The notes beneath the pieces are model-generated. The model saw only the letters and a program-made list of their open reading frames with translations. It was not told where the DNA came from and made no database searches. This document shows, piece after piece, positions 24,603 to 63,762 of a DNA stretch of 64,000 nt (position 1 is the first letter of the stretch; every line of letters starts with the position of its first letter). Position numbers and translations under genes: made by a program. The DNA comes from Candidatus Wallbacteria bacterium (GTDB lineage Bacteria > Muiribacteriota > JAQTZZ01), in NCBI GenBank assembly GCA_028687545.1, contig JAQTZZ010000002.1, forward strand, positions 1-64,000. The letters run 5' to 3'.

Positions 24603-24680
24603 CACATCCCCTTAAAATTTATTCTGTGACATACAGCATCCTTGAGTCTCAACCAATTTTAAACTCGCATGAAATTTTAT

Positions 24681-27070: not shown

Positions 27071-27222
27071 TTACTATTTCTCGAAACTATCGTTAATCAT
27101 GCATTTAATTTTACTCCTTCACCTTTATGTTTACAAAAAAGCTCAGGTAAAATACAATGTTGACAAGAAAGATCATTGTCGTTTGAGTCGAGCTCTGTCA
27201 TTCAACAGGTATGAATTAATCA

Positions 27223-27254
27223 GCAACGGCAAGGCCTTGGAACCTTGCCGTTGC
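27223..27254. repeat. Perfect 12-bp inverted repeat
   Basis: GCAACGGCAAGG, an 8-nt loop (CCTTGGAA), then CCTTGCCGTTGC. No T-run on either side, so a simple rho-independent terminator is unlikely; an operator, a structured RNA or a repeat remnant are options. Confidence 0.75.
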
Positions 27255-27375
27255 CTAATGCATAGCTTACTGCTGCGGCTTTTTCTTGGCTTAGCTTCTG
27301 CCTTTGAGCGGCTTCATGCCAAAATTGCCCAATGCATTGTTCTTTTTCCAGTGCCATAGAACTCATAAATAGGCA

Positions 27376-27402
27376 TGGATTCCTGCTTCCGCAGGAATGA
27401 CG
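27376..27402. repeat. ATTCCTGC-GCAGGAAT dispersed repeat (dRS3-like)
   Basis: The core is ATTCCTGC-TTCC-GCAGGAAT, flanked TGG…GACG. This form (TGGATTCC-GC…GC-GGAATGACG) is a widespread extragenic repeat in many bacteria and resembles the Neisseria dRS3 sequence; the comparison is from memory. Confidence 0.6.
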
Positions 27403-27458
27403 AAAGAAACGCAGTTTAAAGGTTGCGTTTTAATAACTGCTCAGGCTTTCAGTCCTTT

Positions 27459-40307: not shown

Positions 40308-40336
40308 TTGATTTTAAGACGGATTTGGACTATAAT
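40308..40336 (+). promoter_or_regulatory. Leaderless promoter of the first caspase-like paralog
   Basis: TTGATT (40308-40313), 17-bp spacer, TATAAT (40331-40336). The -10 ends 6 nt before ATG 40343, so the predicted +1 is the A of the start codon. There is no room for, and no sign of, a Shine-Dalgarno. Confidence 0.75.
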
Positions 40337-40342
40337 GTATGT

Positions 40343-42910
40343 ATGAAATTGATTCAATTGGTTTTAGCTGTTCTGATGATAATGAATTGTTCCATTGTTT
40401 CTGCTCATGATATAGTTTTTCTTCCTGGACAAGGTGTATTGCCTACGCCAACCCCGCATCCTACCCCGACGCCCACGCCAACTCCGACGCCTACGCCAAC
40501 GCCGACCCCCACGCCGACTCCCACGCCCACGCCAACTCCGACCCCATCTACGGAATTAAAAATTATTTTCAGCAGTTACCGTGGAGACTATACCGGCATT
40601 TACATGATGGGTGCGAACGGCAGTGACCAGAAAAGGATCACACCAGTCAATGCCCCCACTTTCAGCCATGCAGTCTCACCGGTTGGAAACAAATTTGCCT
40701 TTGTGACAGATTATATTGACAATCAGCGCGAACTGTATGTGATGGGTACTGACGGGTCTGGCCGTAAAAAAGTCACTGACGACAAAATCTCTGAGATGCA
40801 TATCAGTTATTCAGCAGACGGCAGCTCTCTGGTTTATTCTCTGTTAAATGGTACAGGCAGCGGGCTGTTGGACAAAGCCTACGACATAGTGACAGTGAAA
40901 ATCGATGGCACAGGATGGAAAAACATTACCAATACTCCTGACAGTGAGGATTATGCTTCCTTTGTCCCTGATGGAACAAAAGTAATTTTCGAAGTCACAG
41001 ACAGTACAAAAGCCACAAATATTGGAATAGTGAAAGCTGACGGCACTGGATATACCAAACTCACCACAGACGGAGTCAGCTATTCTCCCTCGATTTCCGG
41101 GGACGGCACCAAGGTCGTATTCAGTTCCAGCCGCGAAGCGGACCTGCAAAGCATTTACATTGGAGATGCCAGCGGGACCAAACCCAAGAAAATCGCCTCT
41201 GTAAAAGAGAAAAACTGCCTGCGTCCGAAGATTTCCGCTGATGGAGCAAAAGTGTATTTTCTGGTGGAAACCGTTTCCGGGATGCAGAAAACTTACGATA
41301 TAGGAATGGTAGGTTCAGACGGCAGCTCGCAGACATTGATCACGACAAAATCCGATGTTACTGATTTCGACGTTGCACCAGACGGCGTCAGTGTGGTCTA
41401 TGCTTCCCAGCATGAGGGGAACCTTCAGATTTATGTGATCAACTCCCAGGCTGGAGGGCCTACCAAGCTGACCACCAATGACGGAGCCGATGCAGAACCC
41501 AGGTGGATCACCTACAAAAATTCCAAAGCGCTGATAAAAATGAGAGTGATTGCAGCCGGGCAGTATCCTGCAGAGGCTCAATCTCTCGACTGCACTGACG
41601 CGGACGATTTCATCGATATCCTGAAATCCCAGAATTATAACCTGGAAGCAGACATCAGGGACAAAGAGATCCTCAAATCCTCTTTTGAACCGCCATCTCT
41701 GATCGATATTATGATGTATACAGGTCGTGGCAGTGCTGATATGGCGACCTTCCAGAACGGCACTTTTTCTTATAGAGACTTCAAATGCAATAATGTCAGG
41801 CACTTGCTGCTCTCCTGCAGCGAATCGCTGACAAACCACTGGGTCAATACTCAAAGAAATAATTCCAGGCTGCTCACAATACTTGGATACCGCATGGCTT
41901 CATTCGACAAACCTGCAGATAACGGCATAATCAAAATCTTCTGCACTGGCATCAACGGCAAATCCACTGATGATGCCCAGGCTTTTTTTGATGCCTGGAA
42001 ACTGGCCAACTGCTCCTATGATCAGGAAACGGCCAGGTGCTGGAGCGGAATCATTAACAATTCCTATTACATGAGCCAGAGCAAATTCGATTTAGTCGAC
42101 ATGGGTGACCCTGGTAACAGTATGTTTTCCAGAGAGGACAACATGGAATCTTCCAAAATTTCGTCGGCTGGATTTAAAGCACATCCGCTGGAAGTCCCAG
42201 TCCCTCTTAAAGAGAATCTCAGCTATGCTTTTACTGTGGAAAAGGCTGTTGACGAGGAATTTCCAGTGATAATGGCTAATCCGATCGAGATACAGCGCCA
42301 GCTTGACTTGAATTCTTTCTTGAACTCAGGCTATGATTGTGAAATTTCCCCATCAGGCGGTCTGCGGATTTTCCGGACCCCTTCAAACCTGAACACTTCC
42401 AAAGGCTTCAGGGAAGCGTATAACGCCACTGTAACTTTCATCGATTCCTATCTGGGCGGCCTCCCGCCTGACGCCGAACTTAAAGAGATCGTTCCTATTG
42501 TCCGTACCAGTTCAGGTACAGATGTATCCATCAATTACTTTCTCTCCTTCGGCAGAGTGGTCGACGGCAAGGAGTTGTCAGGATTCAGCGGAGATTGCCT
42601 GAATTTCCTTGTGGACCGGTTCGGAATTGCTTCGTGCACTGTCCTCTGGCGGCAGCTCGAACAGTCTCCACCACAAAAAGACCTTCGGCTCCTCGATCCC
42701 ATAGAAGCTCTGACCAGGGCGGCTTCTCAGATCTCCTCACTGATCAAAACCGGGGGGAATCTCACTTTCATCAACTTCACTGTGGGATATTATTCACCGT
42801 CTTTCCTGAAATCAGGTCCAGTGCAGTGCAGACCCTGCTATCATTTTATCACTCGCGATGGAAGCAGGATCCATGTCGACGCATGCAACGGCAACCTGTT
42901 CAATGACTAA
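40343..42910 (+). CDS. Secreted Pro-Thr-linker/TolB-propeller/caspase-like protein, copy 1 (catalytic His lost)
   Basis: 855 aa from ATG 40343, where a signal peptide begins (MKLIQLVLAVLMIMN…SAHD); the longer frame from 40169 would bury it. After the signal come ~35 residues of Pro-Thr repeats, a TolB/PD40-like propeller (~75-395; LYVMGTDGSGRKKV, SPSISGDGTKVVF), and a clan CD (caspase/gingipain-like) fold (~400-600). In copy 2 the catalytic pair is GHG…ACC; here it is GRG with Arg462 while Cys492 remains, so peptidase activity is probably lost. The end has a PepSY-like tail (CRPCYHF…HVDACNG). Likely an extracellular or periplasmic binding protein. Confidence 0.85.
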   Translation: MKLIQLVLAVLMIMNCSIVSAHDIVFLPGQGVLPTPTPHPTPTPTPTPTPTPTPTPTPTPTPTPTPTPSTELKIIFSSYRGDYTGIYMMGANGSDQKRITPVNAPTFSHAVSPVGNKFAFVTDYIDNQRELYVMGTDGSGRKKVTDDKISEMHISYSADGSSLVYSLLNGTGSGLLDKAYDIVTVKIDGTGWKNITNTPDSEDYASFVPDGTKVIFEVTDSTKATNIGIVKADGTGYTKLTTDGVSYSPSISGDGTKVVFSSSREADLQSIYIGDASGTKPKKIASVKEKNCLRPKISADGAKVYFLVETVSGMQKTYDIGMVGSDGSSQTLITTKSDVTDFDVAPDGVSVVYASQHEGNLQIYVINSQAGGPTKLTTNDGADAEPRWITYKNSKALIKMRVIAAGQYPAEAQSLDCTDADDFIDILKSQNYNLEADIRDKEILKSSFEPPSLIDIMMYTGRGSADMATFQNGTFSYRDFKCNNVRHLLLSCSESLTNHWVNTQRNNSRLLTILGYRMASFDKPADNGIIKIFCTGINGKSTDDAQAFFDAWKLANCSYDQETARCWSGIINNSYYMSQSKFDLVDMGDPGNSMFSREDNMESSKISSAGFKAHPLEVPVPLKENLSYAFTVEKAVDEEFPVIMANPIEIQRQLDLNSFLNSGYDCEISPSGGLRIFRTPSNLNTSKGFREAYNATVTFIDSYLGGLPPDAELKEIVPIVRTSSGTDVSINYFLSFGRVVDGKELSGFSGDCLNFLVDRFGIASCTVLWRQLEQSPPQKDLRLLDPIEALTRAASQISSLIKTGGNLTFINFTVGYYSPSFLKSGPVQCRPCYHFITRDGSRIHVDACNGNLFND
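40442..40546 (+). repeat. Hexanucleotide Pro-Thr coding tract, copy 1
   Basis: 35 codons of nearly pure Pro-Thr (with one His) written with mixed CCx/ACx codons, mostly CCG/CCC and ACG/ACC. Low complexity; forms an extended linker between the signal peptide and the propeller. Confidence 0.9.
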
Positions 42911-42982
42911 AGCTCAAGAACAGATTTCACCAACTCTTTCAAAATGAAGCTTCCTGTTTAGTCAACATATGTCAAGCCCCAC

Positions 42983-43011
42983 TTGCCTAAAAGACATTTT
43001 TAGACTATAAT
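42983..43011 (+). promoter_or_regulatory. Leaderless promoter of the second caspase-like paralog
   Basis: TTGCCT (42983-42988), 17-bp spacer, TATAAT (43006-43011), then 6 nt and ATG 43018. Same geometry as the promoter of copy 1, and the bases around it (GACTATAATGTA-GTATG) are shared. Confidence 0.75.
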
Positions 43012-43017
43012 GTAAGT

Positions 43018-45648
43018 ATGAAAATATTTCTGTTGATTTTGACGATTTTCCTGATCGTGAATTGTCCTGACATTTCTGCACATGATATAGTTTTTCTTCC
43101 AGGACAGGGTGTATTGCCTAATCCTACCCCACATCCTACTCCGACCCCCACTCCTACTCCAACACCGACTCCTACTCCTACACCTACTCCAACACCGACA
43201 CCGACTCCTACTCCTACACCTACTCCAACACCGACCCCCACTCCTACTCCAACACCGACTCCTACCCCCACTCCAATTTCAGATTTAAAAATCCTGTACA
43301 GCAGTTATCAAAATAATTACACCAGTGTTTTTATGATGGATTCCAACGGAGCCAATCAGAAGAGAATCACACCCGATGCTGCCCCCACTTTTAGCCATGC
43401 AGTCTCTCCTCTTGGAAAAACCTTTGCCTTTGTGACCGATACCCTGGAAGCAGCTCAGCGTGACATGTATGTGATGGGAATTGACGGCTCTGCACGTAAA
43501 AAAGTCACAGATGATAAAACGACTGAAATTCACATTAATTATTCTGCGGACGGCAATTGGCTGGTTTACTCCCTGCAGAACGGATCAGCCAGCCCCAGCG
43601 GGTTGCTTACCAAAATCTACGACCTGGTGGTTGTAAAAACAGACGGCACAGGCTGGAAGAATGTCACCAATACTCATGACAGCGAAGACTTTGCCAGCTT
43701 TTTCCCTGACGGGAAAAAAATAATTTTCCAGGTTACCAACGATTCCAATGAAACATATGTGGCAGTGGTTGGAGTTGACGGCACAGGTTATACCAAACTC
43801 ACCACAGACAAAATGAGTTTCAACCCCTGCGTTTCGGCTGACGGAACTAAGATCGCATTCAATTCCAAGCAGGGCGGGACACAGGAGTGCATCTACATTG
43901 CAGATGCAGACGGCAATAACCCCAAGAAGATAGCTTCTTTAAACGGCCTGAACTGCACCCGCCCTAAAATTTCCGCTGACGGGACCAGAGTCTATTACAT
44001 GGTGGAATCAGTTCCAGGGGTCATGAAAAGTTATGATGTGGGAGAAGTCGCTTCAGACGGCAATGCGCCGCAGCTGGTCACTACCAAATCCAGTGTGCTG
44101 GATTTCGACGTGGCCCCTGACGGGGTAAATGTGGTTTATTCCTCCAAGCACGAAGGTAATCTGGAGATCTATACAGCCAACATCACGCTGGGAGGATTCA
44201 CAAAGCTGACCACCAACCCTGGAGCTGACGCAGAGCCCAGGTGGCTGAACGCCAAATCCGATGTGACTGTAGTCAAAAAAATGAGAGTGCTAGCAGCAGG
44301 TGCTTACTCTCCCCCGAACAAGCCACTCGACAACACGGACGCCGACGATTTCATCGCCGCCTTGAGCGCACAGGGTTATACTCTGGAAGCCGACATCCGC
44401 GATGCAGCGATCAACCAAGCTTCATTCGAGCCGTCCACGCCGATAGACATCCTGATGTACACAGGACACGGCACAGACGACATGGCCTGCCCGCCTAGCG
44501 GAGATACCTATTCATTCAGTGACTGCAAATCCAACAAAGTCAAACACATCATGCTTGCCTGTTGCCTGTCTGTCACAGATAAATGGGTAGACGCCCAGAA
44601 AAACAATTCGAATCTGCTCACTGTACTCGGTTATTACATGATCTCATGGGACAAACCTGCAGACAACGAAATCGCCAAGGCGTTCTGCTCAGGGATCAAC
44701 GGCAAATCCACAGACGATGCCCAGGCCTTTTTCGACTCCTGGAAACTGGCCAACTGCAACTATGATCCGGAAATGGCTAAACGCTGGAGCGGTGTGATCA
44801 ATAAAACTTATTACAAAGGTCAGAGCAAATTTGCTTTTTTCAACCAGGACGATCCCAATGACAACACTTGTTTCAGAGAGGGAACAGAGAGTTTAACCAA
44901 AATCTCAGTCTCAGGACTCAAAGCCAGATCATTGGAAACTCCGATCCAGCTCAGCGACAATCTCAGCTATGCTTTCGCAGTTGAAAAGGCCATTGACGAT
45001 GAATTTCCGGCGATAGTTGCCAATCCTGTCGATGTAAAGCGCCACGTTGATTTGAAATCATTCCGCCGCTTTGGTTATGATTACGAAATTTCCCAGGCAG
45101 GCGGTCTGCGGATTTTCCGGACCCCTTCAAATCTGAACACTTCCAAAGGTTTCTGGCAAGCGTATGCCACTGCTGTAAATTTCATCGAGGCCAATGGCGG
45201 GCTCCCTGCTGACGCCGAACTTAAAGAGATCATACCCATCGTCCGTACCTCATCCGGCATGGATGTGACCATTAATTACTTCCTCTCCTTCGGCAGAGTT
45301 GTAGACGGCAAAGAACTTTCAGGAATCAATGGAGACTGCATAAATCTCCTAGTGGACCGGTTTGGAGTAGCCTCTTACACTGTCCTCTGGCGGCAGCTGG
45401 AAAAATCTCCGCCTCAGAAAGAGTTGATTCTCGATCCAATCGAAGCTCTGAACAGGGCGGCTCCCCAGATATCCTCCCTGATCAAAGCAGGAGCACAAAT
45501 CACTTTCATCAACTTTACAATGGGATATTATTCTCCGTCCTTCAGGCAATCCGGCCCAGTAGAGTGCAGACCCTGCTATCATTTCATCACCAGCGATGGA
45601 AGCAGGATCCACGTTGATGCAGAGAGCGGTAACCTGCTCACTGATTAG
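43018..45648 (+). CDS. Secreted Pro-Thr-linker/TolB-propeller/caspase-like protein, copy 2 (catalytic dyad intact)
   Basis: 876 aa, the same domain order as copy 1 and highly similar along its length. Signal peptide ([15 protein letters not shown]…SAHD), ~53-residue Pro-Thr linker, propeller (~95-415), caspase-like domain (~420-620), PepSY-like end. The hydrophobic strand plus YTGHG gives His484, and HIMLACC gives Cys515 (or 516); this H-G…A-C spacing is the clan CD signature also used by DUF6345-type proteins, so a cysteine peptidase is predicted. Substrate unknown. Begins 107 bp after copy 1 with its own leaderless promoter. Confidence 0.85.
43117..43275 (+). repeat. Hexanucleotide Pro-Thr coding tract, copy 2, with a 36-bp tandem duplication
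   Basis: 53 codons of Pro-Thr repeats, longer than copy 1 and with different codon choice (CCT, CCA, ACT, ACA). Two 36-bp blocks (43165-43200 and 43201-43236) are identical but for the last base. Changes by multiples of 6 bp keep the frame, so length may vary between strains. Confidence 0.9.
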
Positions 45649-45677
45649 TACCCATTTCCTACTGACTTGTTTTCAGG

Positions 45678-45683
45678 TAAAAT
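45678..45683 (+). promoter_or_regulatory. Leaderless -10 box of the ABC substrate-binding lipoprotein gene
   Basis: TAAAAT, then 6 nt (TACTTA), then ATG 45690. -35 is poor (TTTCCT at 17 bp). No Shine-Dalgarno before the ATG. Confidence 0.5.
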
Positions 45684-45689
45684 TACTTA

Positions 45690-47171
45690 ATGCTGAGAAA
45701 TATTTTTCTGATTTTGCTTTTCGCCATTACTTCCGGCTGCGGAAAAAACACCATAACTCCGGTTCAGGACAAAGAACACCTGGGCAGCGGAAATAAATCC
45801 GTGTCAGGGGACTCAGCTGTTGTAGCGCTCAGAAATTCACCTCTGAGCTTCAATCCACTGCTTCCTCAAAACGAAACCTCCCAGCTGATTAACCCTCTGC
45901 TATATGCCAGTGTGGTAAAAGAGGAACCTGATGGTTCGTTTACCGGTGATATTGCCAGAAAATGGGAAATCTCCACAGACGGAAAAATCATCACTTTTTA
46001 TCTGAAAAACATTATCTGGTGGCAGGATGCGATCGAACTCACTGTCGCAGACATCAAATTCACCTGTGCTGCGATCAGATCCGGCAACAGCAATCTGCGA
46101 GAAGCTTTTTCCCGCTGCAGCCTGGAAGTAGTGGATGCATACTGTTTCCGAGCCGTATATGATGAGCCTTTCGCCCCTGCTCTCTGCAGCTGGACTGTTC
46201 CAATTCTTCCTTCACACCTGCTGCTTCGTGAAAATCTGCCTGATTCAGCCTTTAATTATCAGCCGATCGGAGCCGGCCCTTTCAGTTTTACCTCCTATTC
46301 ACAGGATGACACACTGATCCTCAGCGCCAGTCAGAGCTATTTTCTCGGCAGACCGTTGCTTGACAAACTCGTATTCAAGATCATTCCCGACACTGGGAAT
46401 GCCATCAATCTGCTGCTTCAGGGGAAGATCGACATTCTGGAACTCGAACCATATCAGTTTCAGAAATACTCCGGCTCAAGCGAGTTTCTGAACCGATTTA
46501 CAGTGTTAAAAAAACCTTGCACAGACTATATCTCAATCAGATTTTCCAAGGGGACTCCTTTAACCGACCGGAATCTTAGAAATGCTCTCTCACTAGCCAT
46601 CGACAGGGAACGCTTTGAAGGACGCCCCATCTCAAGCCCGTTCCCGCCGGATCGCTTTGAAAACCCTGCTGTCAAACCGATGGAATTTTCCCCGGAAAAA
46701 GCCCGCAAACTGTTGGAATCCCGCGGCAGCGGAGCCGGAGGCAATTCAATCTGCCTGAATTATCCGGCTGAGCTTTCGAATCAGGCAGCGATAATCAAGG
46801 ACTCCTGGGAAAAAATCGGAGTTACAGTTACCCTGAAATCAGGGATCACAACAGAAATCACCGGAGAAACAAACGTGTTTCTGGAGCGGAAAGCTTATGG
46901 GTCTGACCCTGAGTTCTGCGACCTGCCTGACGGAGTCCCGGAAATTGCGCGGCTGATGGCTGAAGGCAGGAGAACTTTGAACATGGATCAAAGAAAAGAA
47001 ATATATGGTCAGGTTCAAAAGATCCTGGCCGAAAGTCAGATCATCATCTTTCTCAGCGCGGAATCAGGTTTTTACGCTGCTGACAAGCGCTTTGCCGGGC
47101 TTAAGTTCGTGCCAGGCAGAGGATTCAATTTTCAGGAATGCAGCGTCCCGCAGGAATTGCAAAAGTATTAG
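45690..47171 (+). CDS. Peptide-type ABC transporter substrate-binding lipoprotein (SBP family 5)
   Basis: 493 aa with a lipoprotein signal (lipobox ITSGC, Cys near residue 18). SBP_bac_5 features: SFNPLLPQNETSQLINPLLYASVVKEEPDG, the WWQDAIELTVADIKFT element, and a C-terminal region listing YGQVQKILAESQIIIFL. It would bind oligopeptides, nickel chelates or similar at the outer face of the inner membrane, but no permease or ATPase gene is next to it, so it may be an orphan that shares a transporter or acts as a sensor. Starts 41 bp after the second caspase-like gene, with its own -10. Confidence 0.88.
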   Translation: MLRNIFLILLFAITSGCGKNTITPVQDKEHLGSGNKSVSGDSAVVALRNSPLSFNPLLPQNETSQLINPLLYASVVKEEPDGSFTGDIARKWEISTDGKIITFYLKNIIWWQDAIELTVADIKFTCAAIRSGNSNLREAFSRCSLEVVDAYCFRAVYDEPFAPALCSWTVPILPSHLLLRENLPDSAFNYQPIGAGPFSFTSYSQDDTLILSASQSYFLGRPLLDKLVFKIIPDTGNAINLLLQGKIDILELEPYQFQKYSGSSEFLNRFTVLKKPCTDYISIRFSKGTPLTDRNLRNALSLAIDRERFEGRPISSPFPPDRFENPAVKPMEFSPEKARKLLESRGSGAGGNSICLNYPAELSNQAAIIKDSWEKIGVTVTLKSGITTEITGETNVFLERKAYGSDPEFCDLPDGVPEIARLMAEGRRTLNMDQRKEIYGQVQKILAESQIIIFLSAESGFYAADKRFAGLKFVPGRGFNFQECSVPQELQKY

Positions 47172-47333
47172 AAGTTGTTCCAAGAACTGAGCTTCGCGAA
47201 GTTCTTGGTTACAACTTCTTATCCCCGGAGCGTCCTGAGCATAGCTCGGGACGCGGAGTGGGACTAATAAAATCATCCCAAGCCTCCGGCTTCGGGATGA
47301 GAGCCACTAACAAACAAGTTTGAAAGTGGCTCT
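47171..47333. repeat. Four consecutive stem-loops between convergent genes
   Basis: Stem 1, 47171-47218 (GAAGTTGT…ACAACTTC with an inner AAGAACT/AGTTCTT). Stem 2, 47230-47254 (GCGTCC…GGACGC with GAGC/GCTC). Stem 3, 47274-47299 (CATCCC…GGGATG with AAGCC/GGCTT). Stem 4, 47300-47333, the AGAGCC element. Together they fill the gap exactly, from the last base of one stop codon to the base before the next gene's stop. No long T-run. Confidence 0.7.
47300..47333. repeat. AGAGCC/AACAAA palindromic element, copy 2
   Basis: AGAGCCACTAACAAAC, 2-nt loop, GTTTGAAAGTGGCTCT. The arms pair except the central AA (opposite TT), as in the copies at 15317 and 56317. Ends one base before the stop codon of the minus-strand FGE-like gene. 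Confidence 0.65.
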
Positions 47334-48095
47334 TCACTTCTCCATCACTACCCTGAGTCCGTTCAGAAGATACCATTGCTCTTTGGGGCTTTTATCCCTG
47401 GCTTCCAGATGGCAGAAGTATGAATAATTCCAGAAACACCCGCCCCGCAGAACTTTGAGATTTCCGTTCGTGCACTGCGGATCATTGACAGGGCTGCTGC
47501 CGTAATATTTATCATAATAACTGTCATTGCACCATTCCCGGACATTTCCCAGCATATCGAACAAACCCCATGGATTCGGCTTCTTCAGCCCGACATCGTG
47601 TGTCATGTTTCCGCTGTTGTCGCCATACCAGAGATAATCAGTTTCAATGGAATCGCCCCAGTAAAAATGAGTGATTGTGCCGGCCCGGCAGGCATATTCC
47701 CATTCAGCTTCGGATGGAAGGCGGAACTTGCCGATCCCGCGCAGGTTCAAACGGCCGACAAAGTCCTGGCAGTCGTTCCAGCTTACTTGCTCCACAGGCC
47801 TGTTCGGACCGGAAAAACAGCTGGGATTGAATCCAGTCACTTCTTCCCACTGCCTTTGAGTGACTTCATATCTGCCGAGATAGAAATCCCTGGTGATCCT
47901 GACCAGGTGAGCAGGACAGGCATCTGCCGAATCGGATTCCACCCTGCCCATCGTGAATTCACCAGCTGAGATCAGCACTAATTCCATAGTCACTGAATGC
48001 CCGATATCAATGGTTTTTTCAGTGGCGTCCACAGCTGAGGCTGAAAAGCAAGTGGCAGAGGCCAGAAAAATAAAAATCAGACAAACTATCCGCAT
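47334..48095 (-). CDS. Exported FGE/SUMF1-fold protein
   Basis: 253 aa with a signal peptide (cut near SASA/VD). Formylglycine-generating-enzyme (FGE-sulfatase) fold: GEFTMGRVESD, DFYLGRYEVTQRQWEEVTG, PVEQVSWNDCQDF, FRLPSEAEWEYACRAGT, GNVREWCNDSYY, and VLRGGCFW at the end. Members include sulfatase-activating enzymes but also many proteins that only bind peptides or metals. The paired cysteines of active enzymes cannot be assigned with certainty here. No sulfatase gene is in the window. Transcribed divergently from the haem-binding-like gene with only 42 bp between starts. Confidence 0.88.
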   Translation of the reverse strand: MRIVCLIFIFLASATCFSASAVDATEKTIDIGHSVTMELVLISAGEFTMGRVESDSADACPAHLVRITRDFYLGRYEVTQRQWEEVTGFNPSCFSGPNRPVEQVSWNDCQDFVGRLNLRGIGKFRLPSEAEWEYACRAGTITHFYWGDSIETDYLWYGDNSGNMTHDVGLKKPNPWGLFDMLGNVREWCNDSYYDKYYGSSPVNDPQCTNGNLKVLRGGCFWNYSYFCHLEARDKSPKEQWYLLNGLRVVMEK

Positions 48096-48137
48096 AGATT
48101 AGTTAGATAATAACCAAAATTCTGATAAAATGGAAAC
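48096..48137. promoter_or_regulatory. 42-bp shared divergent promoter region with two near-leaderless start sites
   Basis: Plus strand: TAAAAT (48126-48131), then 6 nt, then ATG 48138. Minus strand: TATTAT (plus-strand 48107-48112), then 11 nt, then ATG 48095, with TTTCCA 18 bp upstream as a possible -35. Neither gene has a Shine-Dalgarno; the two promoters must overlap. Confidence 0.55.
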
Positions 48138-49286
48138 ATGGCTGCTTTTTGGATGCTGGTCTTTTTCCTGACTGCCACTCATCTTTCTGCCGCTGAAACT
48201 GGAAACTCAACGCATTCAGCGCGATCCGAACTCTCAGAGCGGCACGGCCAGATCTTGCAGAGGCTCTTCCCCGTGCTGGAACTGCCCTTTGATTATCCCC
48301 CGGAAACAAAGACAGTGAAAATTCCTCGGAATCTGTCCCTTTGCCCCCCTGTCCCCGTAAATTCAGGCACAATCGTATCTTCCCACAGGATCACATCTGC
48401 TCCAGTGCTGGACGGGATTCAGGACAGCTGCTTCAATCGCCCGGTCAGCATCGACAATCCATTTTTTGAAAACACTCTGATCGCATCCTGTTACGATTCG
48501 GAAAGCGTCTATTTTTTAATCAGATTCGAGAACAGGATTTCTACGGAAGTCTTTCTCCTGAACCTGGAATGGGACAGGGATAAAAAGTCGTATTCAGCTT
48601 CAGATTATGAAGAAGCTGATTATAAATATTATTTACCGCGCAAGAACCTTTTCCTGGATCTTTTCTGGGAAACCGGACCTGGCCTGGAAAAAAGTCTCGG
48701 CAGTCGGAAAAAATGCCTGCTTGATCTGTGGGAATGGGCACCAGGAACCTGCAGCGGATTCCTGGACGACCGTTCAGTCAGGATCCAGTTCTCTGTCTCG
48801 CCCGGTGAGCTGAGGTTCCACCATGGAGAACTGCTGGGCCCTCTGCCTTTCTTTCTCAATCCGAGCTTCCTGGTTTTCGGGCTTGAGGATTCAGACATCG
48901 GCATCCCTCCATACACTGCGATAGATACAATCCCTTCTGAATTCAAGGGGGAAAAGCTGAACTGGTTCAGGGATCAATTACCCTCAGGTTCTGCCGGAGA
49001 TCTCCGGGCAGTCTGGGCGTTCAACGGAAAGCAGGGAGATCTCTCAGGTGCGGCAGCAGCATCAGGAGTGGGAAAATGGTCTCTGGAAATCAGCAGGAAG
49101 CTGCGCACAGGCCATAGCGATGACGTGCAGTTCGAGCCTGGAAAGAAAAGCTCTTACCGTTTCTATTTCCAGTACATGATCCCGGTCTACAGCAAAGACT
49201 TGAAGGGCAGGCAAATCTATGACCCGCTATTGGAGCGCAATCTCGGCAAATTCTTCCCGTACTATACCCTGAAATTTGTGGATTGA
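48138..49286 (+). CDS. Exported protein with ethylbenzene-dehydrogenase-type haem-binding-like domain
   Basis: 382 aa with a signal peptide (first ~19 residues). From ~85 on it follows the EB_dh/CBM9-like pattern: APVLDGIQDSCF, SVYFLIRFENR, DLWEWAPGT, and the near-C-terminal WSLEISRKLRTGHSDDVQF block, which is the typical W-x-E-x-x-R-x-L-x-TG-x-x-DD signature of haem-b-binding subunits of DMSO-reductase-family dehydrogenases. The axial ligands cannot be named with confidence. No molybdenum enzyme gene is nearby, so it may be a stand-alone haem or sugar binder. Confidence 0.62.
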   Translation: MAAFWMLVFFLTATHLSAAETGNSTHSARSELSERHGQILQRLFPVLELPFDYPPETKTVKIPRNLSLCPPVPVNSGTIVSSHRITSAPVLDGIQDSCFNRPVSIDNPFFENTLIASCYDSESVYFLIRFENRISTEVFLLNLEWDRDKKSYSASDYEEADYKYYLPRKNLFLDLFWETGPGLEKSLGSRKKCLLDLWEWAPGTCSGFLDDRSVRIQFSVSPGELRFHHGELLGPLPFFLNPSFLVFGLEDSDIGIPPYTAIDTIPSEFKGEKLNWFRDQLPSGSAGDLRAVWAFNGKQGDLSGAAAASGVGKWSLEISRKLRTGHSDDVQFEPGKKSSYRFYFQYMIPVYSKDLKGRQIYDPLLERNLGKFFPYYTLKFVD

Positions 49287-49297
49287 ATAAACTGTAA

Positions 49298-52200
49298 TTA
49301 CTGCCCGATCGGCAGGGTCACAATGAATGTGCTTCCCTGGCCATGCACTGATTCCACCCGGATCGTACCTTTATGCATTTCCACAAGTTTCTTTGTGATG
49401 GACAGCCCGAGGCCTGTGCCCTTGACTTTCTTGGTCCTTGATTCAACGATCTGCATGTATTGATCAAAGATCCTGTCCAGCTGCTGCTCAGGAATTCCGA
49501 CGCCCTGATCGGAAACAGCCAGGGTCGCGTAAAGCCCGTTCCTGTCGGCAGAACCATGGAAACCGCTCCGGAATAACCTGATTTTGATCTCACCCTGTTC
49601 GGAATACTTGATGGCATTGCTTAGAAGATTCAAAAGAATCTGGCGCACCCGCTTTTCGTCAGCCCGGATTTCAGGGAGATTTTCTTCGATTTCAGTCAGG
49701 AAGTGATATTTCCCTTTCTTTTCAACTGTTTCAAGCATGGCCTGGACTTCCTGGCCGACTGAGACGATGGTTTCGTCCAGCCTGACTTTTTCGATAGTCA
49801 GCTGAAATTTGCCTGCTTCGATCTTTGACAGATCAAGGATATCGTTGATCAAACCGAGCAGGTGCCTGCCGCTTCTAAGAATCATCTCCAGAGTCTCCCG
49901 CTGCTCCTGATCAAGTTGTGTTTCTCCGACCAGGCCGTCCAGAAACTGCTCGGTAAAGCCGATGATCGAATTCAACGGGGTCCGCAATTCGTGACTCATG
50001 GAAGCGAAGAATTCGTCCTTGATTTTACTGACCCGCTGCAGGTCTTCCAGGGTTGCAGCCAGTTCCATCGTGCGGGCTCTGACCTGTTCCTCCATGCCGT
50101 TGGAATATTTCTCCAGTTCCTCCATCATGCGGTTGAAAGCCTGTCCCAGGCGTTCAAACTCGTCTCCTGTGTTGACCTGGACCTTTCTGGAATAATCCCG
50201 CATGCTCAAGCCGGCAATTCCATCGGACAAAGCCCTGATCGGATTCAGAATCGATTTCCGGATTCCTTTTAAAAGGAGATAAATTACTGCGATAGTGACC
50301 AGAAAATACAAAATGATGTTCTGCCAGAACCACTGGTCCAGCAATTCCCTGACTTTGCCTGCAACAATGAAGATCTTCAAGGTACCTAGATATTCCTTTT
50401 TCTCGGTGAACAGGCAATCGTAAAACTCATACCAGCCTTTGCGGGTCAGAAATACGTGTCCGCCTTCTCCTGTCTGTCTGAGCCGTTCGTATTTTCGCCT
50501 GACAGAGGCAGGTAATTTGATTGATGACAGCTCCTCTGCCTTTACCCTCCCAGGCAGAACGCTGTAATGGTAAATCAGCTGTCCATAAGAATCATAGAAA
50601 GTGAATTCCAGGATCGTGGGGTCGTTTTTCACGATGTCCCTGCAGCTGCTGGCCACCTGATCGTAATTTCTGGCCAAAAGATAAAGCATTGTGGTCCTGT
50701 TGACAGTGCTGATCAGATACCTTCCTGTCCTGTCCACAAAGCTTTTTTCCAGATCCTGAACCAGTCTGTTCGCTCTGACAAAGCCGGTGAGGAAAGCCAG
50801 GGAACAGATCAGAAAAAGGATGCACAGGCGCACGATCAGCTTACTGATCAGCTTGCCGCTCAAAGTCTTCCATTGCAAAAGCATCCGCTTCATGATAAAA
50901 AGGACTGCTAAAACCGCGAAAATCTCCAGAAACAGGGCACTCCACGGGATGCCGCTTTCTTCCGGCTTGTCTGGCAGTGCTTCAGCTGGCCCGGCCGGAA
51001 TTCCAGGTTCTGGTTTCTCTCCAGGGCCGGAAAACAATATGGTGTCAAGCATCAGGTTGGCGTGAAAGGAGTCGCTGCCAGGGCAGCAGCCATACTCTCC
51101 TTCTGTGAACAAGGCAAGGAATGGTTTTCCGAAGGCCTTCTTATACTCCATGCCGAGCTGATTAACCTGTTTTTTCTGCTCGAGCAGTATCTGCGAGCCT
51201 GCGCAATAAAAGGAAAGTCCGCCGGAAAAGTCACCGCCGATCATGGCCCTGGCGCTGAGCAGGCTTACTCCAGGCCGTTTGACCAGTGCCTGGTCATCAA
51301 CAGCCATCAGAACCAGCCGTTCACCGACCCGTACAGGGGAGTAAGTATTAAGACTCCCGTCTTTTTCAGGATTTACGGCCAGAACAAAATGCCTGTCAAT
51401 CCCGTCAGATCCCTTTTTCACCCTGGCCAGCGGGTAATACAACAGATTGTTGAAAATATCTTCCCCATTCCTGATCCGCTCGCTGAATCGGTTATCTGTC
51501 CAGAGATTGTAAACATCCACTGCAGGTTTGCCGTCAATTTCACGGATTCTCTGCAGATCAGCTGCAGTGATCAGTCCTTCCGGCCCAGCTACCCTGAAGC
51601 CGCTCTGAAAATTAAGACCGATCCGCCTGTCTGTATATACTGCCAGCAAAGCAAGTCCGTCTTTTTCCAGCACGTTTCCATTGAAAAATAAGGCCCCCTG
51701 GTTTAGATGAGTGTCACCGCCGAATACAGGCACAGGCCCGAATCTGTCCTTGATCGATTCCAGGATTTCGTTGACATGTTCGTTGTAAAACGAGGCGAGC
51801 AGAAACAGCGCCGGTTTTTTATCTGCAGGCAGCTGTTTGAAAGCCTCCGAAGCAGCCAGCAGGGGATCTCCCCTGACAGCCGGAGCTCCGGCAGCGATGA
51901 ATTCGTGATCATTGCTGCAGAGAGCCAGTAATCCTACCGAATGATCGTTGAAAATCTCCAGAGTGGAATTCATGAAAAATCCTTTTCCAGTAGTAAGACC
52001 CCAGACAGGCACACCTGGAAAAACCCTTGAAACTTCTTCGATAATCGGCTTTTTGACGGAAAAATCATTGGTGGCTGCTATAAAGATCACTGCAGTTTTT
52101 TTCCCGCCAAGCTCCCTAAGCAATGATTCCGCTGCGATCCGACCGGCTTCGGCCGGATCCTTCACAGCAGATGTCCATCCTTGAAAGAAAGAGTTTTCAT

Positions 52201-52300
52201 TCCCCAGGGAGGTCCCGGAATCAGGAGAAGATCTGCGGTCGACCTGACCGTAAACAGACAGCGTCATGACAAGCAATGAGCAGATCAATAACCTGATCAT
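49298..52300 (-). CDS. Exported-FIST sensor histidine kinase
   Basis: 1000 aa from ATG 52300, chosen because it overlaps the cyclase stop as ATGA and begins the signal/anchor segment. FIST_N (~25-220) and FIST_C (~225-425) lie outside the cytoplasm, then a first membrane segment (~455), another (~490), a second extracytoplasmic domain (~510-650), a membrane segment (~655), HAMP (~685-735), a coiled coil, HisKA with His770 (SMSHELRTPLNS) and HATPase_c with GTGLGLSITKKL. A ligand bound by FIST outside should set autophosphorylation. Last gene of REC-cyclase-kinase operon. Confidence 0.92.
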   Translation of the reverse strand: MIRLLICSLLVMTLSVYGQVDRRSSPDSGTSLGNENSFFQGWTSAVKDPAEAGRIAAESLLRELGGKKTAVIFIAATNDFSVKKPIIEEVSRVFPGVPVWGLTTGKGFFMNSTLEIFNDHSVGLLALCSNDHEFIAAGAPAVRGDPLLAASEAFKQLPADKKPALFLLASFYNEHVNEILESIKDRFGPVPVFGGDTHLNQGALFFNGNVLEKDGLALLAVYTDRRIGLNFQSGFRVAGPEGLITAADLQRIREIDGKPAVDVYNLWTDNRFSERIRNGEDIFNNLLYYPLARVKKGSDGIDRHFVLAVNPEKDGSLNTYSPVRVGERLVLMAVDDQALVKRPGVSLLSARAMIGGDFSGGLSFYCAGSQILLEQKKQVNQLGMEYKKAFGKPFLALFTEGEYGCCPGSDSFHANLMLDTILFSGPGEKPEPGIPAGPAEALPDKPEESGIPWSALFLEIFAVLAVLFIMKRMLLQWKTLSGKLISKLIVRLCILFLICSLAFLTGFVRANRLVQDLEKSFVDRTGRYLISTVNRTTMLYLLARNYDQVASSCRDIVKNDPTILEFTFYDSYGQLIYHYSVLPGRVKAEELSSIKLPASVRRKYERLRQTGEGGHVFLTRKGWYEFYDCLFTEKKEYLGTLKIFIVAGKVRELLDQWFWQNIILYFLVTIAVIYLLLKGIRKSILNPIRALSDGIAGLSMRDYSRKVQVNTGDEFERLGQAFNRMMEELEKYSNGMEEQVRARTMELAATLEDLQRVSKIKDEFFASMSHELRTPLNSIIGFTEQFLDGLVGETQLDQEQRETLEMILRSGRHLLGLINDILDLSKIEAGKFQLTIEKVRLDETIVSVGQEVQAMLETVEKKGKYHFLTEIEENLPEIRADEKRVRQILLNLLSNAIKYSEQGEIKIRLFRSGFHGSADRNGLYATLAVSDQGVGIPEQQLDRIFDQYMQIVESRTKKVKGTGLGLSITKKLVEMHKGTIRVESVHGQGSTFIVTLPIGQ

Positions 52301-53253
52301 ATCTTTTTTTTCTCGTTTAAAACGAACCACATTTCAATGGGAGAGCGATTTTTAATCTCAACAATCCCTCGTGATTCGCAGTTGAAAGTGTTTTTGACAA
52401 GGTCATGGGTGGCTCTGGAAATGTTCACCCTGCCGGGGGAACCGTTACTTTCGCACCTGGATGCGATATTGACCGTATCTCCCCAGATGTCATAGGCAAA
52501 TTTCGTCTTGCCGATCACGCCTGCCACGACCGGTCCGGTATGGATGCCGATCCTGGCCTCCCAGTAATCACGTCCGGCTCTGGTTTTTTCCTCTTTGGCC
52601 AATTTCATGAACTGCTGAAACTCCAGGCCGGCTCTTACGCAGTTTTTCACTTTTTCCAGGCCGTCGCTCTGCAATCCACCGGCGCACATGTATGAGTCGC
52701 CGATGGTCTTGATCCGCTCCAATCCGTACCTTGCGCTGATGTTGTCAAACTCCTCGAAGCAGGATTCCAGTTCCCTCACCAGTTCTTCCGGAGACATCCT
52801 TTCAGCCATTTTCGTGAAACCCTTCATGTCTGTAAAAAGAACTGTCACCAGATCGTGATATCTGGGAATAGTGGTGTTCGTGGCCTTAAGCTCTTCCGCG
52901 ACATATTCAGGAAGGATGTTGAGTAATAACCTGTCGGATTTCCGGCGCTCCTCGTCGACCTGCCTGAGCAGCAGTTCCAGCGCGAGGTTACGCTTGACAG
53001 CTCCTTCCTCAATCAGATCGAACATCTTATGGATCATGGGAATCACTGTCTGCAGGGATGTTCCGATCTCCTCGGTATACCCCCTTCTGATAAATTCATC
53101 CAAAGCGCCGGATTCGCCGAAATACCCTTCTGTCATTTGTTCCAGCGTCAGAAGGATGGTATTGAGATCTGACCTCAATTTTTTATCGATCTCTTTCATG
53201 GAGGAGGTTTCGATCTCACCGGGAATCGCAGTATTGAGAATCTTCAGTTCCAT
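52297..53253 (-). CDS. Cytosolic class III adenylyl cyclase
   Basis: 318 aa. A helical N-terminal half (~1-125) ends in RRKSDRLLLNILPEYVAEEL, a usual lead-in to the cyclase domain. Catalytic domain: FTDMKGFTKMAE and a second metal Asp; RIKTIGDSYMCAGG with the adenine-selecting Lys; YDIWGDTVNIASR with the Asp, Asn and Arg. The Lys/Asp pair predicts ATP as substrate. Starts inside the REC gene's stop (TGATG) and ends inside the kinase start (ATGA), so all three are translationally coupled; phosphorelay and cAMP may be linked. Confidence 0.93.
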   Translation of the reverse strand: MELKILNTAIPGEIETSSMKEIDKKLRSDLNTILLTLEQMTEGYFGESGALDEFIRRGYTEEIGTSLQTVIPMIHKMFDLIEEGAVKRNLALELLLRQVDEERRKSDRLLLNILPEYVAEELKATNTTIPRYHDLVTVLFTDMKGFTKMAERMSPEELVRELESCFEEFDNISARYGLERIKTIGDSYMCAGGLQSDGLEKVKNCVRAGLEFQQFMKLAKEEKTRAGRDYWEARIGIHTGPVVAGVIGKTKFAYDIWGDTVNIASRCESNGSPGRVNISRATHDLVKNTFNCESRGIVEIKNRSPIEMWFVLNEKKKI

Positions 53254-53660
53254 CAGACCAGACCCAGCCTCTTCCCGATCAATTCCTTCAATCTCTTGCG
53301 GTCAATCGGTTTGGAAATATACTCATCGCAGCCGGCAGCGCGGCATTTTTCCTCGTCCCCTTTCATGGCCTGCGCGGTAATAGCGAGAACAGGAATCGCC
53401 TTGAAGTTCGGATCAGCCTTGATCTTTTCAGTGGCAGTCAGTCCGTCCATCACCGGCATATCTACGTCCATCAGCACCAGATCGAACTCATGCAGCAAAA
53501 GCAGATCCAGAGCCAGCTGCCCGTTTTCCGCTGAAAGAGTCTTGAAACTCAATCCGGGATAAACAAGCGGCAGCCCCTTCTGCACTTCCCTCTGCAAAAC
53601 CAGCCTGTTCTGTTCATTATCGTCAACGATCATGATCAGGAATTCCTTTTTCTCGTTCAT
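53253..53660 (-). CDS. Single-domain response regulator (REC)
   Basis: 135 aa from ATG 53660, with GGAAGGTGA just upstream; an earlier in-frame start (53693) lacks a site. One CheY-like receiver: acidic pair DD (13-14), phospho-Asp65 in LVLMDVDMP, and the SKPID Lys. No output domain, so it likely works by protein contact, perhaps on the cyclase encoded next or as the target of the FIST kinase two genes on. First gene of the operon, divergent from murB. Confidence 0.92.
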   Translation of the reverse strand: MNEKKEFLIMIVDDNEQNRLVLQREVQKGLPLVYPGLSFKTLSAENGQLALDLLLLHEFDLVLMDVDMPVMDGLTATEKIKADPNFKAIPVLAITAQAMKGDEEKCRAAGCDEYISKPIDRKRLKELIGKRLGLV

Positions 53661-53741
53661 TTTCACCTTCCAGGTTGTTGATGGCAGAATCATGCCATGC
53701 TTTCAGTAAAATTATCTCATTTTTCCTTGAAAAAATCACTA

Positions 53742-53770
53742 GTGACTCACCACTAATTCTCTGTTAGAAT
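53742..53770 (+). promoter_or_regulatory. Leaderless promoter of murB
   Basis: GTGACT (53742-53747; 4/6 to TTGACA), 17-bp spacer, TAGAAT (53765-53770), 6 nt (GTCGCC), ATG 53777. No Shine-Dalgarno. Same -10-to-ATG spacing as the other leaderless genes in the window. Confidence 0.65.
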
Positions 53771-53776
53771 GTCGCC

Positions 53777-54667
53777 ATGAAAGTTTATCAGAATTACCCT
53801 GTCGCTCAGCTTACCACCTTCGGACTCGGCGGGAATGCTGAAAAAGTCGTTTTCCCGGAATCTCCGGAAGAACTGGCAGCCTGCGTGGAAAAACTTTCCA
53901 GGTCAGGGGAAAATTATTTTCTGCTGGGTAACGGCAGCAACCTGATTTTTCAGGACTGCAGGATCGAAGGCACATTAGTCGTGAACCGCAGCCCTGGCCT
54001 GATCAGCGAAGAAGACGACTGCATCAGAGCGGACAGTTCAGTGTCTCTCTCCAATCTGCTGGAATTCTGCCTTGGAAACGGCATTGGCGGGTATGAGTTC
54101 CTCTCAGGAATCCCAGGAACAGTAGGCGGAGCGGTGTCCGGCAATGCCGGAGCTTATGGCGATTCAATCGGGAACTTCGTCAGGACGGCAGAACTATACA
54201 GCCCTGAGAAAGGCATCTTCCAGGCCGGACAGGGTGATTTCAATTTTGACTACCGGGAAAGCGAAGTCAAGCGGAAAAAGCTCGTGATCACCCGCGTGGC
54301 TCTCTCAAAGCCTTCCAGGTCTTCCTCCTGGTGCATCAAGAGCAGAACCGGGGAAATCCTGGCACAGAGGGATTCCAAGCTCCCGCCCCGGGGAACACCC
54401 TGCGCAGGCAGCTTCTTCAAGAATGTGCTGCTCCCCGGAGCTGACAGAAGGACTGCCGCAGCCTGGTTTATCGATCAGGCCGGTTGTAAAGGCCTGAGGG
54501 TCGGGGGCATTGAAGTCTCGCCTTATCACGCCAATTTCATTGTCAATAAAGGCAACTCCTCTTTTTCAGAGCTTCAGGAACTGGTGCAAATAGTGAAAGA
54601 AAGGGTGAGAGATAAATTCAGGATCGAATTGCAGGAAGAAGTGATCTATTACCCGCAGTTACGATAA
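53777..54667 (+). CDS. murB: UDP-N-acetylenolpyruvoylglucosamine reductase
   Basis: 296 aa. NADPH-dependent, FAD-containing enzyme that makes UDP-N-acetylmuramate in the cytoplasm, an early step of peptidoglycan synthesis. FAD-domain motifs LLGNGSNLIFQD and GIPGTVGGAVSGNAGAYG; active-site Arg in FDYRES; proton-donor Ser in AGSFFKN; closing Glu in LQEEVIYY. Fits the shorter type II MurB. It stands alone rather than inside a mur cluster, divergent from the signalling operon, with a predicted leaderless mRNA. Confidence 0.95.
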   Translation: MKVYQNYPVAQLTTFGLGGNAEKVVFPESPEELAACVEKLSRSGENYFLLGNGSNLIFQDCRIEGTLVVNRSPGLISEEDDCIRADSSVSLSNLLEFCLGNGIGGYEFLSGIPGTVGGAVSGNAGAYGDSIGNFVRTAELYSPEKGIFQAGQGDFNFDYRESEVKRKKLVITRVALSKPSRSSSWCIKSRTGEILAQRDSKLPPRGTPCAGSFFKNVLLPGADRRTAAAWFIDQAGCKGLRVGGIEVSPYHANFIVNKGNSSFSELQELVQIVKERVRDKFRIELQEEVIYYPQLR

Positions 54668-61059: not shown

Positions 61060-61857
61060 TCAATTAAAAAAAAGCCTCTCTTCCTGGAGAATTTTTTCGA
61101 AATCACCGGCCCGCTGCTGATTCTGGTTTTCCAGTACCCTGACCTTGGCGATTTTTTCCAGTGATTCCTTTGCAATTCCGGTTTCGTATTCGTACTTCCC
61201 GAATTTGTCGATAATCTCCCTGTAGATCAGTTCTGCGAGCGGATAAGCGTGCAGATTCTGCTGGCTGTAACCTTCTTCGAGCATGATGGAAACGAGCATC
61301 CGTTCGTCGTCAGACCTCAATCTCCGGGACTGCTGCAGGCTGATCAGAGCGTCCTGGAATTTTTTCAGTCTGTTTTCCAGTACGCCTTTCTGGTAGTAAA
61401 GATAGCATAAATCATCAATGTTCTTGACGATCTGCAGGTCCCTGCCCGTAAATTCCAGTGCTTTCTGGTAATCCTTCTGCTTGATGTATTCGAGTGACAG
61501 CCTGAAATACACCTGGCTTTTCCGCTCAACCTGAATGCTCTTTGATTCAAGGGCTGTGCTGAAATTCGCGATTGCGTTCTTTGAGTTGTTTTTAGCGCTG
61601 TAATAGTTGCCGAGACCGAGGTAGGCAAGATAGAGGTTGTCGTTTCCGGGATAGGTATCGATGAATTCGCGGCAGGTCTTGAAAAGTGAATAATAAGCGC
61701 CTATTCCCATGTTTTCCTCAATCCTGGAAACGAATTCCTCAGGCGTCATTTTTCCCCTGGCAGGCTGCTGCCAGAAAAAAACTGAGATGCAGAGAAGCAG
61801 AATCACTGCAATTTTGAACATGCTCCGAAGTCTGCGGACTTTTCTTCGCCTTGGCAT
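61060..61857 (-). CDS. Membrane-anchored TPR-like protein
   Basis: 265 aa. A very basic N-terminus (MPRRRKVRRLR), one membrane or signal segment (~13-30), then TPR-like helices (YLAYLGLGNYYSAKNN, YYQKGVLENRLKKFQDAL). No ribosome site; a TATAAT lies 9 nt before the ATG, giving a leader of ~3 nt. The next gene starts 40 bp on, so it may be the first gene of the secretion operon. Function otherwise unknown. Confidence 0.8.
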   Translation of the reverse strand: MPRRRKVRRLRSMFKIAVILLLCISVFFWQQPARGKMTPEEFVSRIEENMGIGAYYSLFKTCREFIDTYPGNDNLYLAYLGLGNYYSAKNNSKNAIANFSTALESKSIQVERKSQVYFRLSLEYIKQKDYQKALEFTGRDLQIVKNIDDLCYLYYQKGVLENRLKKFQDALISLQQSRRLRSDDERMLVSIMLEEGYSQQNLHAYPLAELIYREIIDKFGKYEYETGIAKESLEKIAKVRVLENQNQQRAGDFEKILQEERLFFN

Positions 61858-61866
61858 AATGAGACA

Positions 61867-61875
61867 ATTATAGCA
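61867..61875 (-). promoter_or_regulatory. Extended -10 promoter (TGCTATAAT) giving a near-leaderless mRNA
   Basis: Minus strand TGC-TATAAT, perfect -10, 9 nt before ATG 61857. No good -35. Predicted leader ~3 nt; no Shine-Dalgarno. Confidence 0.6.
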
Positions 61876-61916: not shown

Positions 61917-63710
61917 CTATGGTAAACGATAGCTGTAATTAAGAATCCCGTTGTTTTCCATATAGATCCAGTATCCATGGCCAGGATCAAGTTTACCCAA
62001 TGTGGAAAAACCGATCGAAGTGCTGTTCATGAATGTCCGGAATCCTTCGCTGCCTCCATCGCCGGTGGTTCGATAGAAGCCCATGATATACTTCACAGAT
62101 CCGGCAAGCTGGTCAGGGTTGGAATTAAAAATACTGTCAATCACGGTATTTTTATCTGTCATCAATTTAGGAAGGCTGTTCCCGGCAGACAGCCAGTAGC
62201 CTGAAAGGTTCCAGCCAGCAGCAACAGTTCTCTGGCTGTATTTCTCTGGAGGAACCCCGGTGACTTCAAGTGTGCTGTCTGAAATCAGATAGACCCAGTA
62301 GCCGTGCCAGGTATCCATGGTGAGCAGTGTCGAATAATCTCTCAGATTCTCGATGTTCATGAAGGTTCTGAAACCTTCAGCACCGTCGTCTGCAGGAGTT
62401 CGGAAAAAACCCATCACATATTTCAATCCGGAAATTGAATTGAAAATTGTTTCAATGGAATCCGAATCAGGTGTCACACCAAGCGAAATCAGATTCCAGC
62501 CGGCTTTCAGGGGAATCGTATTCTTTATCTTCTCAGTGAATACAGTGTATTTCACGCTGCAGTTGAACGAATCGGCAGAATCAGAATAGACGATGTGCCG
62601 ATTGCCCAGGCCGTCGATTTTCAGGATCCCGTCCCCCCCGTAATAAGTGCGCGGCTGACTTTCCAGAACTTGTGTTTCCCAGGTATCACAGCTCTTTCTG
62701 AAAAACTTCAGGTTGTCCGGTGAGGTCGTATAACAAATAAAGCAGGGGATGTCTCCTGGAGCTAGCGCCAGTGAGGGAAATTGTCCGCCGGTAGTGCTGG
62801 CTACTTCGATCGACCAGGACCAGCTATCCTCAAAATGTCCAAGCCCGTATTTCAGGCAGTGATTCGTGCTGTCCAGAAATACGACTGCCGGATTCTGCTG
62901 GGAATCCAGGGCCAGGGATGAAAATTCACCGACATCATCGCTGGAACTTATTGTGGAACTCAGCCAGGAGGAACCATTGTAAACCGCCAGTTTGAGATCC
63001 TTATTTTGAGTGTCATAATAACTGAGATAAGCCTTGGTCCCGGATTGCAGTCTGAATGAGAAATTCAAGCCTGCAGCATCCGCTCCCGTGGCCGTATAAA
63101 TGCTGCTCCAGGAACCGCCTGTTTTGTTGGCATAAATAACCGAATGCTGAATCGGATCGTAAAAGGCGATGTGCGGCACGTCGTTTTCGTCAAAATCCAG
63201 ACAGATCCTGGTAGCGCTGTTTACAGATGATTGAGGAATGGTTTCAATGTTGTCCCAGTTCCCGTTGTATTTGACGTATTTCAGATAGTTTTTATTGGAG
63301 TCGAAATAAGCTATCCCGGGGTTTCCTTGCGAATCCAGAGCAAGAGCAGTGTTCTTCAATGTGCCTGTCGCCACAAGTGCTACTTCCCATGTGCCGTTGT
63401 GATAAGCGGCATAATTAAGAGCAAATTCATTGAGATAGTCAGAAAAAGCGATTCTGGGGTTGCCTGATGCATCCAGGACAAGTGCAGCAAAACTGCCGCT
63501 TTCAATGGTTTCGCAGTCCCAGTCCATACCCGGGGACAGACTTCTGGCCAGGGCAGGTATGGTTTTTTGCCGATTCTGAGCGGTTGCAATCGAATGATCA
63601 GGAACTGAGGTCTTTGCGGCCTGCAATCGCTTCAAAGGTATTCTGCCGCTGCCTGCCTGGCTCAAGTTTAATAAAATGAAAATCGAAATTATGCTGAAAA
63701 ATTTTTTCAT
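61917..63710 (-). CDS. Secreted propeller-like protein with two C-terminal GWN…GYW modules
   Basis: 597 aa. Signal peptide (SIISIFILLNLSQAGS), then ~340 residues of short repeats such as LALDSQGNPGIAYFDSNK and SYLSYYDTQNKDLKLAVYNGSSW, likely a beta-propeller. The end holds two copies of a ~95-residue module: AGWNLISLG…MGFFRTPADDGAEGFRTF…GYWVY and AGWNLSGYW…MGFYRTTGDGGSEGFRTF…GYWIY. No enzyme motif seen; a surface or extracellular adhesion-like protein is possible. Near-leaderless start (TAATAT or CATAAT 6-8 nt before ATG). Confidence 0.8.
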   Translation of the reverse strand: MKKFFSIISIFILLNLSQAGSGRIPLKRLQAAKTSVPDHSIATAQNRQKTIPALARSLSPGMDWDCETIESGSFAALVLDASGNPRIAFSDYLNEFALNYAAYHNGTWEVALVATGTLKNTALALDSQGNPGIAYFDSNKNYLKYVKYNGNWDNIETIPQSSVNSATRICLDFDENDVPHIAFYDPIQHSVIYANKTGGSWSSIYTATGADAAGLNFSFRLQSGTKAYLSYYDTQNKDLKLAVYNGSSWLSSTISSSDDVGEFSSLALDSQQNPAVVFLDSTNHCLKYGLGHFEDSWSWSIEVASTTGGQFPSLALAPGDIPCFICYTTSPDNLKFFRKSCDTWETQVLESQPRTYYGGDGILKIDGLGNRHIVYSDSADSFNCSVKYTVFTEKIKNTIPLKAGWNLISLGVTPDSDSIETIFNSISGLKYVMGFFRTPADDGAEGFRTFMNIENLRDYSTLLTMDTWHGYWVYLISDSTLEVTGVPPEKYSQRTVAAGWNLSGYWLSAGNSLPKLMTDKNTVIDSIFNSNPDQLAGSVKYIMGFYRTTGDGGSEGFRTFMNSTSIGFSTLGKLDPGHGYWIYMENNGILNYSYRLP

Positions 63711-63762
63711 ATCAAAATATTATGCTGCTTACTCGAGTTTGGCAAATTCGGGTTCCGGATTC

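Follow-up and report, generated by a model that had tools for sequence, protein, structure and literature searches.

How does translation begin on a gene whose −10 box ends so close to the start codon that the expected transcription start is the A of the ATG itself? The question is raised by a stretch of 64,000 nucleotides from the draft genome of a Candidatus Wallbacteria bacterium (the window in the following, analysed at its full length), in which an earlier note, made from the letters alone, had pointed to a class of such genes without a Shine-Dalgarno site (SD). Judging from the sequence of the window and of a larger genome sample, we consider it very probable that a promoter-proximal subset of the genes of this organism has leaderless mRNAs made from sigma-70-type promoters. 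Ordinary promoters of this type would be placed so that the first transcribed base is the A of the start codon, and the resulting mRNA would begin with AUG, free of a 5' leader and of an SD. Ribosomes, probably 70S particles with fMet-tRNA, would presumably bind this 5'-terminal AUG, the 70S route being a part that we infer, while the majority of the remaining genes, among them almost every operon-internal one, would rely on SD-led initiation.

Leaderless candidates in the window

At each of the five plus-strand genes singled out in the earlier note, the hexamer indeed ends exactly 6 nt upstream of the ATG. The genes at 40343 (promoter and start at 40308..40345) and 43018 (42983..43020) are tandem paralogues, the former encoding a secreted PD40/WD40-like protein, and have the arrangements TTGATT-17 nt-TATAAT-6 nt-ATG with the spacer gtatgt and TTGCCT-17 nt-TATAAT-6 nt-ATG with the spacer gtaagt (leaderless posteriors 0.92 and 0.98, respectively). 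TAAAAT stands before both the SBP_bac_5 lipoprotein-like gene at 45690 (45678..45692; weak −35 TTTCCT, spacer tactta, posterior 0.99) and the gene at 48138 (48126..48140; without a good −35, spacer ggaaac, posterior 0.93), and murB at 53777 (53742..53779) is preceded by GTGACT-17 nt-TAGAAT-6 nt-ATG with the spacer gtcgcc (posterior 0.93). The absence of an SD is borne out as well, our mixture model giving SD posteriors no higher than 0.05 at all five genes and of 0.9–1.0 at many operon neighbours. Given ~46 genes in the window and the background rate, the chance of five or more strict matches at 6 nt is ~5e-6, although 40343 and 43018 are not independent, because they are tandem paralogues with similar promoters.

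For three minus-strand genes, leaders of ~1–5 nt had been proposed, which applies to two of them. The TPR protein gene at 61857 shows TATAAT-9 nt-ATG (61855..61872) with a predicted leader of ~2–3 nt; its start is uncertain, as the mixture model favoured an alternative start at 61749. The gene of an FGE-sulfatase-domain protein at 48095 shows TATTAT-11 nt-ATG (48093..48112) with a predicted leader of ~5 nt; at a posterior of 0.53, it is an equivocal case. The third, at 63710, is instead a true 6-nt case, TTGCCA-17 nt-TAATAT-6 nt-ATG (63708..63745; posterior 0.88), and thereby the sixth putative leaderless gene of the window.

Two further features of the window may be mentioned. Positions 40343–45648 hold the tandem paralogous secreted PD40 proteins, which have long PT-repeat linkers and near-identical leaderless promoters. 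Positions 24001–28000 have a GC content of 37.5%, compared with ~48% for the genome, and are possibly a foreign island.

Spacing, promoter features and start codons

For a genome-wide view, we sampled 2.41 Mb (53%) of the 4.54-Mb host genome, with 1660 genes called from coding potential alone, that is, without any upstream signal, and counted strict −10 hexamers (TA...T with at most one inner mismatch). Before these coding-only starts there are 52 such hexamers at 6 nt, 19 at 7 nt and ~7 at neighbouring distances. Likewise, in-frame start ATGs have a strict hexamer in 60 cases at 6 nt, in 20 at 7 nt and in ~9 at other distances, whereas out-of-frame ATGs show no peak, with four matches each at 6 and 7 nt. 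The scan proposed in the earlier note is therefore positive, the peak at 6 nt rising above both the other distances and the out-of-frame ATGs, and a genome-wide class of apparently leaderless genes with a fixed spacing between −10 box and ATG, in a diderm that otherwise uses SD sites, is supported. SD words show their usual peak 4–8 nt before starts in the same sample.

An unsupervised EM mixture, started from a TATAAT-like motif with a flat spacing prior over 0–30 nt, converged on a TAtaaT matrix at 6 nt (40% of the weight) and 7 nt (15%), and on an AGGAGG-type SD for ~71% of the genes. After background subtraction, the leaderless share suggested by these analyses ranges from ~4% of genes in the strict count to ~10% in the model. 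A promoter profile trained on contigs C1–C8 shows the same peak on the held-out contigs C9–C22; the choice of starts in this check had used the −10 matrix, a dependence of which the coding-only hexamer count is free. The first, coding-only gene calling also missed several of the leaderless starts.

Sequence statistics show promoter identity, fixed spacing, SD absence, correct starts and an intact anti-SD for the class, and the actual RNA 5' ends are expected, by inference, to lie at the start codon. A TTGnnn −35 box at a 17-nt spacer is found in 38 of the 127 SD-less candidates, some of which are chance matches (131 at the threshold versus ~30–90 at other offsets); other spacers yield ~1–2 (range 0–5), and SD genes have a TTG at 17 nt in only 9 of 995 cases, with no peak. 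C occupies position −1 in 46% of the candidates. Downstream of −35/−10 pairs in general, the sixth position is enriched in A, and we therefore place +1 there. Complete promoters fall into two groups by their distance to coding-only starts, one at 6–7 nt and the other, that of the leadered genes, at 25 nt or more, with few cases at 8–24 nt between them. An SD score of at least 4 is reached by 3% of the strong candidates and by 65% of the rest, a difference that is partly built into the classification.

These data bear on several other readings. AT-rich upstream DNA yields TATAAT-like hexamers at any distance, and background matches do occur at all distances (~7–9 per position), so that individual genes without a good −35, such as 48138 and 45690, could still be chance matches. 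As the source of the whole class, however, chance is refuted by the 6-nt peak (52 versus ~7 expected, Poisson ~3e-28) together with the out-of-frame control, and we regard it as barely conceivable. The hexamer might also serve translation rather than transcription, as an AT-rich, unstructured or S1-binding signal, given that AT-rich upstream signals have been discussed for Bacteroidetes and Cyanobacteria (PMC5397173). Yet the fixed spacing, the TANNNT consensus, the TTG at exactly 17 nt and the C at −1 are promoter features, and a translation signal would have no need for a −35 box, which makes this reading very improbable.

Start miscalling is a familiar fault of automatic annotation, and the promoters could be real while the true starts lie downstream, behind a normal leader and an SD. 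Indeed, an in-frame start with an SD in front of it lies within 60 codons in 8.7% of the candidates; this is less than the 12.6% seen for SD genes, and within 25 codons the figure falls to 2.4%. An upstream SD start exists in 2 of the 127. Moreover, in most of the candidate proteins tested, conserved Pfam domains begin at residues 1–13 (residue 1 in an RsmD-like protein, 5 in Aminotran_5, 7 in Maf, the RibD deaminase and the Ogt N-domain, 10 in CTP_transf_3 and 13 in A24_N), all but the last within the first 10 residues, which leaves little space for an in-frame leader. As the ATG also coincides exactly with the predicted +1, we consider miscalled starts quite improbable. Very short leaders of 1–5 nt, rather than none, would be a closer variant: the 7-nt spacing makes up about a quarter of the class, and for 61857 and 48095 leaders of 2–5 nt are predicted. 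The most frequent spacing is nevertheless 6 nt, +1 is A and −1 is C, and such leaders are unlikely to be the rule. Within a class of predominantly leaderless genes, the 7-nt members and the two near cases may have leaders of 1–5 nt, and extra upstream promoters may yield leadered transcripts of these genes.

Gene context and protein families

The leaderless genes lead transcription units: 48% are in divergent orientation compared with 24% of SD genes, and 9% lie at most 30 nt behind a same-strand upstream gene, compared with 40% of SD genes. The 3' end of the 16S rRNA keeps ...GGATCACCTCCTTTC and the anti-SD CCTCC is present, so SD initiation should be intact and the two modes appear to coexist in the host. 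Omp85 is found in the genome, in support of a diderm envelope.

Regarding the proteins encoded, the earlier note had counted several of the products as secreted, with murB as the exception. Across the genome a bias to secreted proteins is not supported, since signal-peptide-like N-termini occur, by a crude hydropathy test, in 29% of leaderless and 39% of transcription-unit-leading SD genes, and murB is joined by MurI-like, MurJ, RibD, Maf and RsmD-like proteins. Further leaderless genes encode a CMP-sugar (KdsB-like) transferase, Ogt and a cysteine-desulfurase-like protein.

Among the sampled paralogue families, the STAND regulators stand out. These large ATPases combine NB-ARC and TPR with C-terminal Trans_reg_C or kinase domains, and, unexpectedly, seven of nine are leaderless (C8:28281, C15:42211, C10:102419, C1:90880, C1:88080, C16:50605 and C1:118651 of the host; loci L088, L117, L103, L005, L120 and L006/L007). 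For the linked members the count is 7 of 8 (p ~1e-7, uncorrected for the number of families); many pairs of members are less than 30% identical. In the ninth member (C10, 59695), TAAAAT precedes the likely start by 8 nt, with TTGTAT at 17 nt. The one exception (C14, 7403) begins 1 nt behind an upstream gene, as expected if a gene must be promoter-proximal to be leaderless. Two of the STAND genes are divergently oriented and separated by 136 nt. A separate family with the common start M(S/T)SKVLTIMxTDIK (C5:135082, C17:11488 and C19:57459) has two leaderless genes among three; its Guanylate_cyc domain was assigned by Pfam on C5:135082 only. The leaderless set might thus be non-random, comprising the STAND family with its DNA-binding or kinase outputs and some guanylate-cyclase-domain proteins, and such signalling genes could switch as a group when 70S leaderless initiation is favoured, which we offer as speculation of rather low probability. 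The STAND bias offers a way to test whether leaderless mRNA and signalling are connected.

Distribution and known systems

For the relatives of the host we relied on pattern counts rather than on gene-based tests. The exact TATAAT stands before ATG at 6 versus 14 nt in 72 and 33 cases in the host (G000), 41 and 21 in G001 of the same family, 60 and 15 in G003 and 41 and 14 in G016, with a ratio of ~1 in most other genomes; a 151-kb sample of G003 has seven strict hexamers at 6 nt and three at 7 nt, versus ~1. The −35/−10 pattern gives a wider excess across the phylum (485 at 6 nt versus 185 at 14 nt), part of which, as the ATH control shows, arises because promoters in general favour A at +1. 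Measured against ATH, an excess is left in f1, f2, f3/g4 and a few f5 genomes but is lost in other genomes. By the distance and ATH controls combined, −35/−10/6 nt/ATG is in excess in G000, G001, G002, G003, G016 and some others, and shows no excess in G004, G009, G021, G026, G030 and G032. The relatives thus carry the signature patchily, and we claim no more than this, because the 6-nt excess is in part the preference for A at +1; from either pattern alone we do not infer a phylum-wide trait. Conservation of murB leaderlessness is not supported either, as several other families have a GGAGG-type site before murB. Beyond the phylum, the signal is very strong in the 1.6-Mb Clostridia MAG G036, the L041 genome (27 versus 5 at 14 nt; ATH 14/3), and several Spirochaetales MAGs also show it, while pattern counts did not find it in Brachyspira.

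The earlier note held such genes to be notable in another diderm lineage, which overstates the case: leaderless genes have been predicted in Acidobacteria, Aquificae, Bacteroidetes/Chlorobi, Proteobacteria and Spirochaetes (PMC3160421), and GeneMarkS-2 assigns them to 21.6% of bacterial species (Lomsadze et al. 2018, as quoted in PMC9581028). Their translation by 70S ribosomes has been reviewed (PMC9031893). Our literature search, which did not go by lineage name, found no report of leaderless genes for the host lineage. The reading of the host genes as leaderless is well supported; the anatomy was already described in 2011 from many phyla, diderms among them, and the novelty is modest. With the host, a further diderm lineage, an uncultured one, joins those that combine SD and leaderless initiation, and start-codon annotation in this lineage is improved; related families with and without the trait in one phylum help to date its gain and loss.

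The closest match are the TA-led genes of Zheng et al. (2011, PMC3160421), which have TANNNT/TATAAT ~12 bp before the start, lack an SD, are mixed with SD genes and are operon-proximal, as in the host; the medium-GC genomes there show the same TAtaaT. That survey covered the 953 genomes available in 2011, whereas our host is an uncultured lineage with a draft genome; the functional bias seen in the survey, towards information processing including transcription, loosely matches the STAND regulators. Deinococcus-Thermus likewise has the −10 box at a strict spacing of a few bp from the ORF, with promoter function established by experiment, but does so for ~30% of ORFs compared with ~4–10% in the host, which often has a −35 at 17 nt (PMC12340547). 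In Mycobacterium and Streptomyces, leaderless and SD mRNAs coexist and AUG is preferred at leaderless starts, as predicted for the host; in the actinobacterium S. avermitilis, ~22% of mRNAs are leaderless by mapped 5' ends, whereas the class in the host is predicted from sequence (PMC3898074, PMC8780764). Finally, the leaderless class of GeneMarkS-2, as quoted in PMC9581028, resembles the host in being a two-model genome, with promoter-type and SD-type upstream signals side by side.
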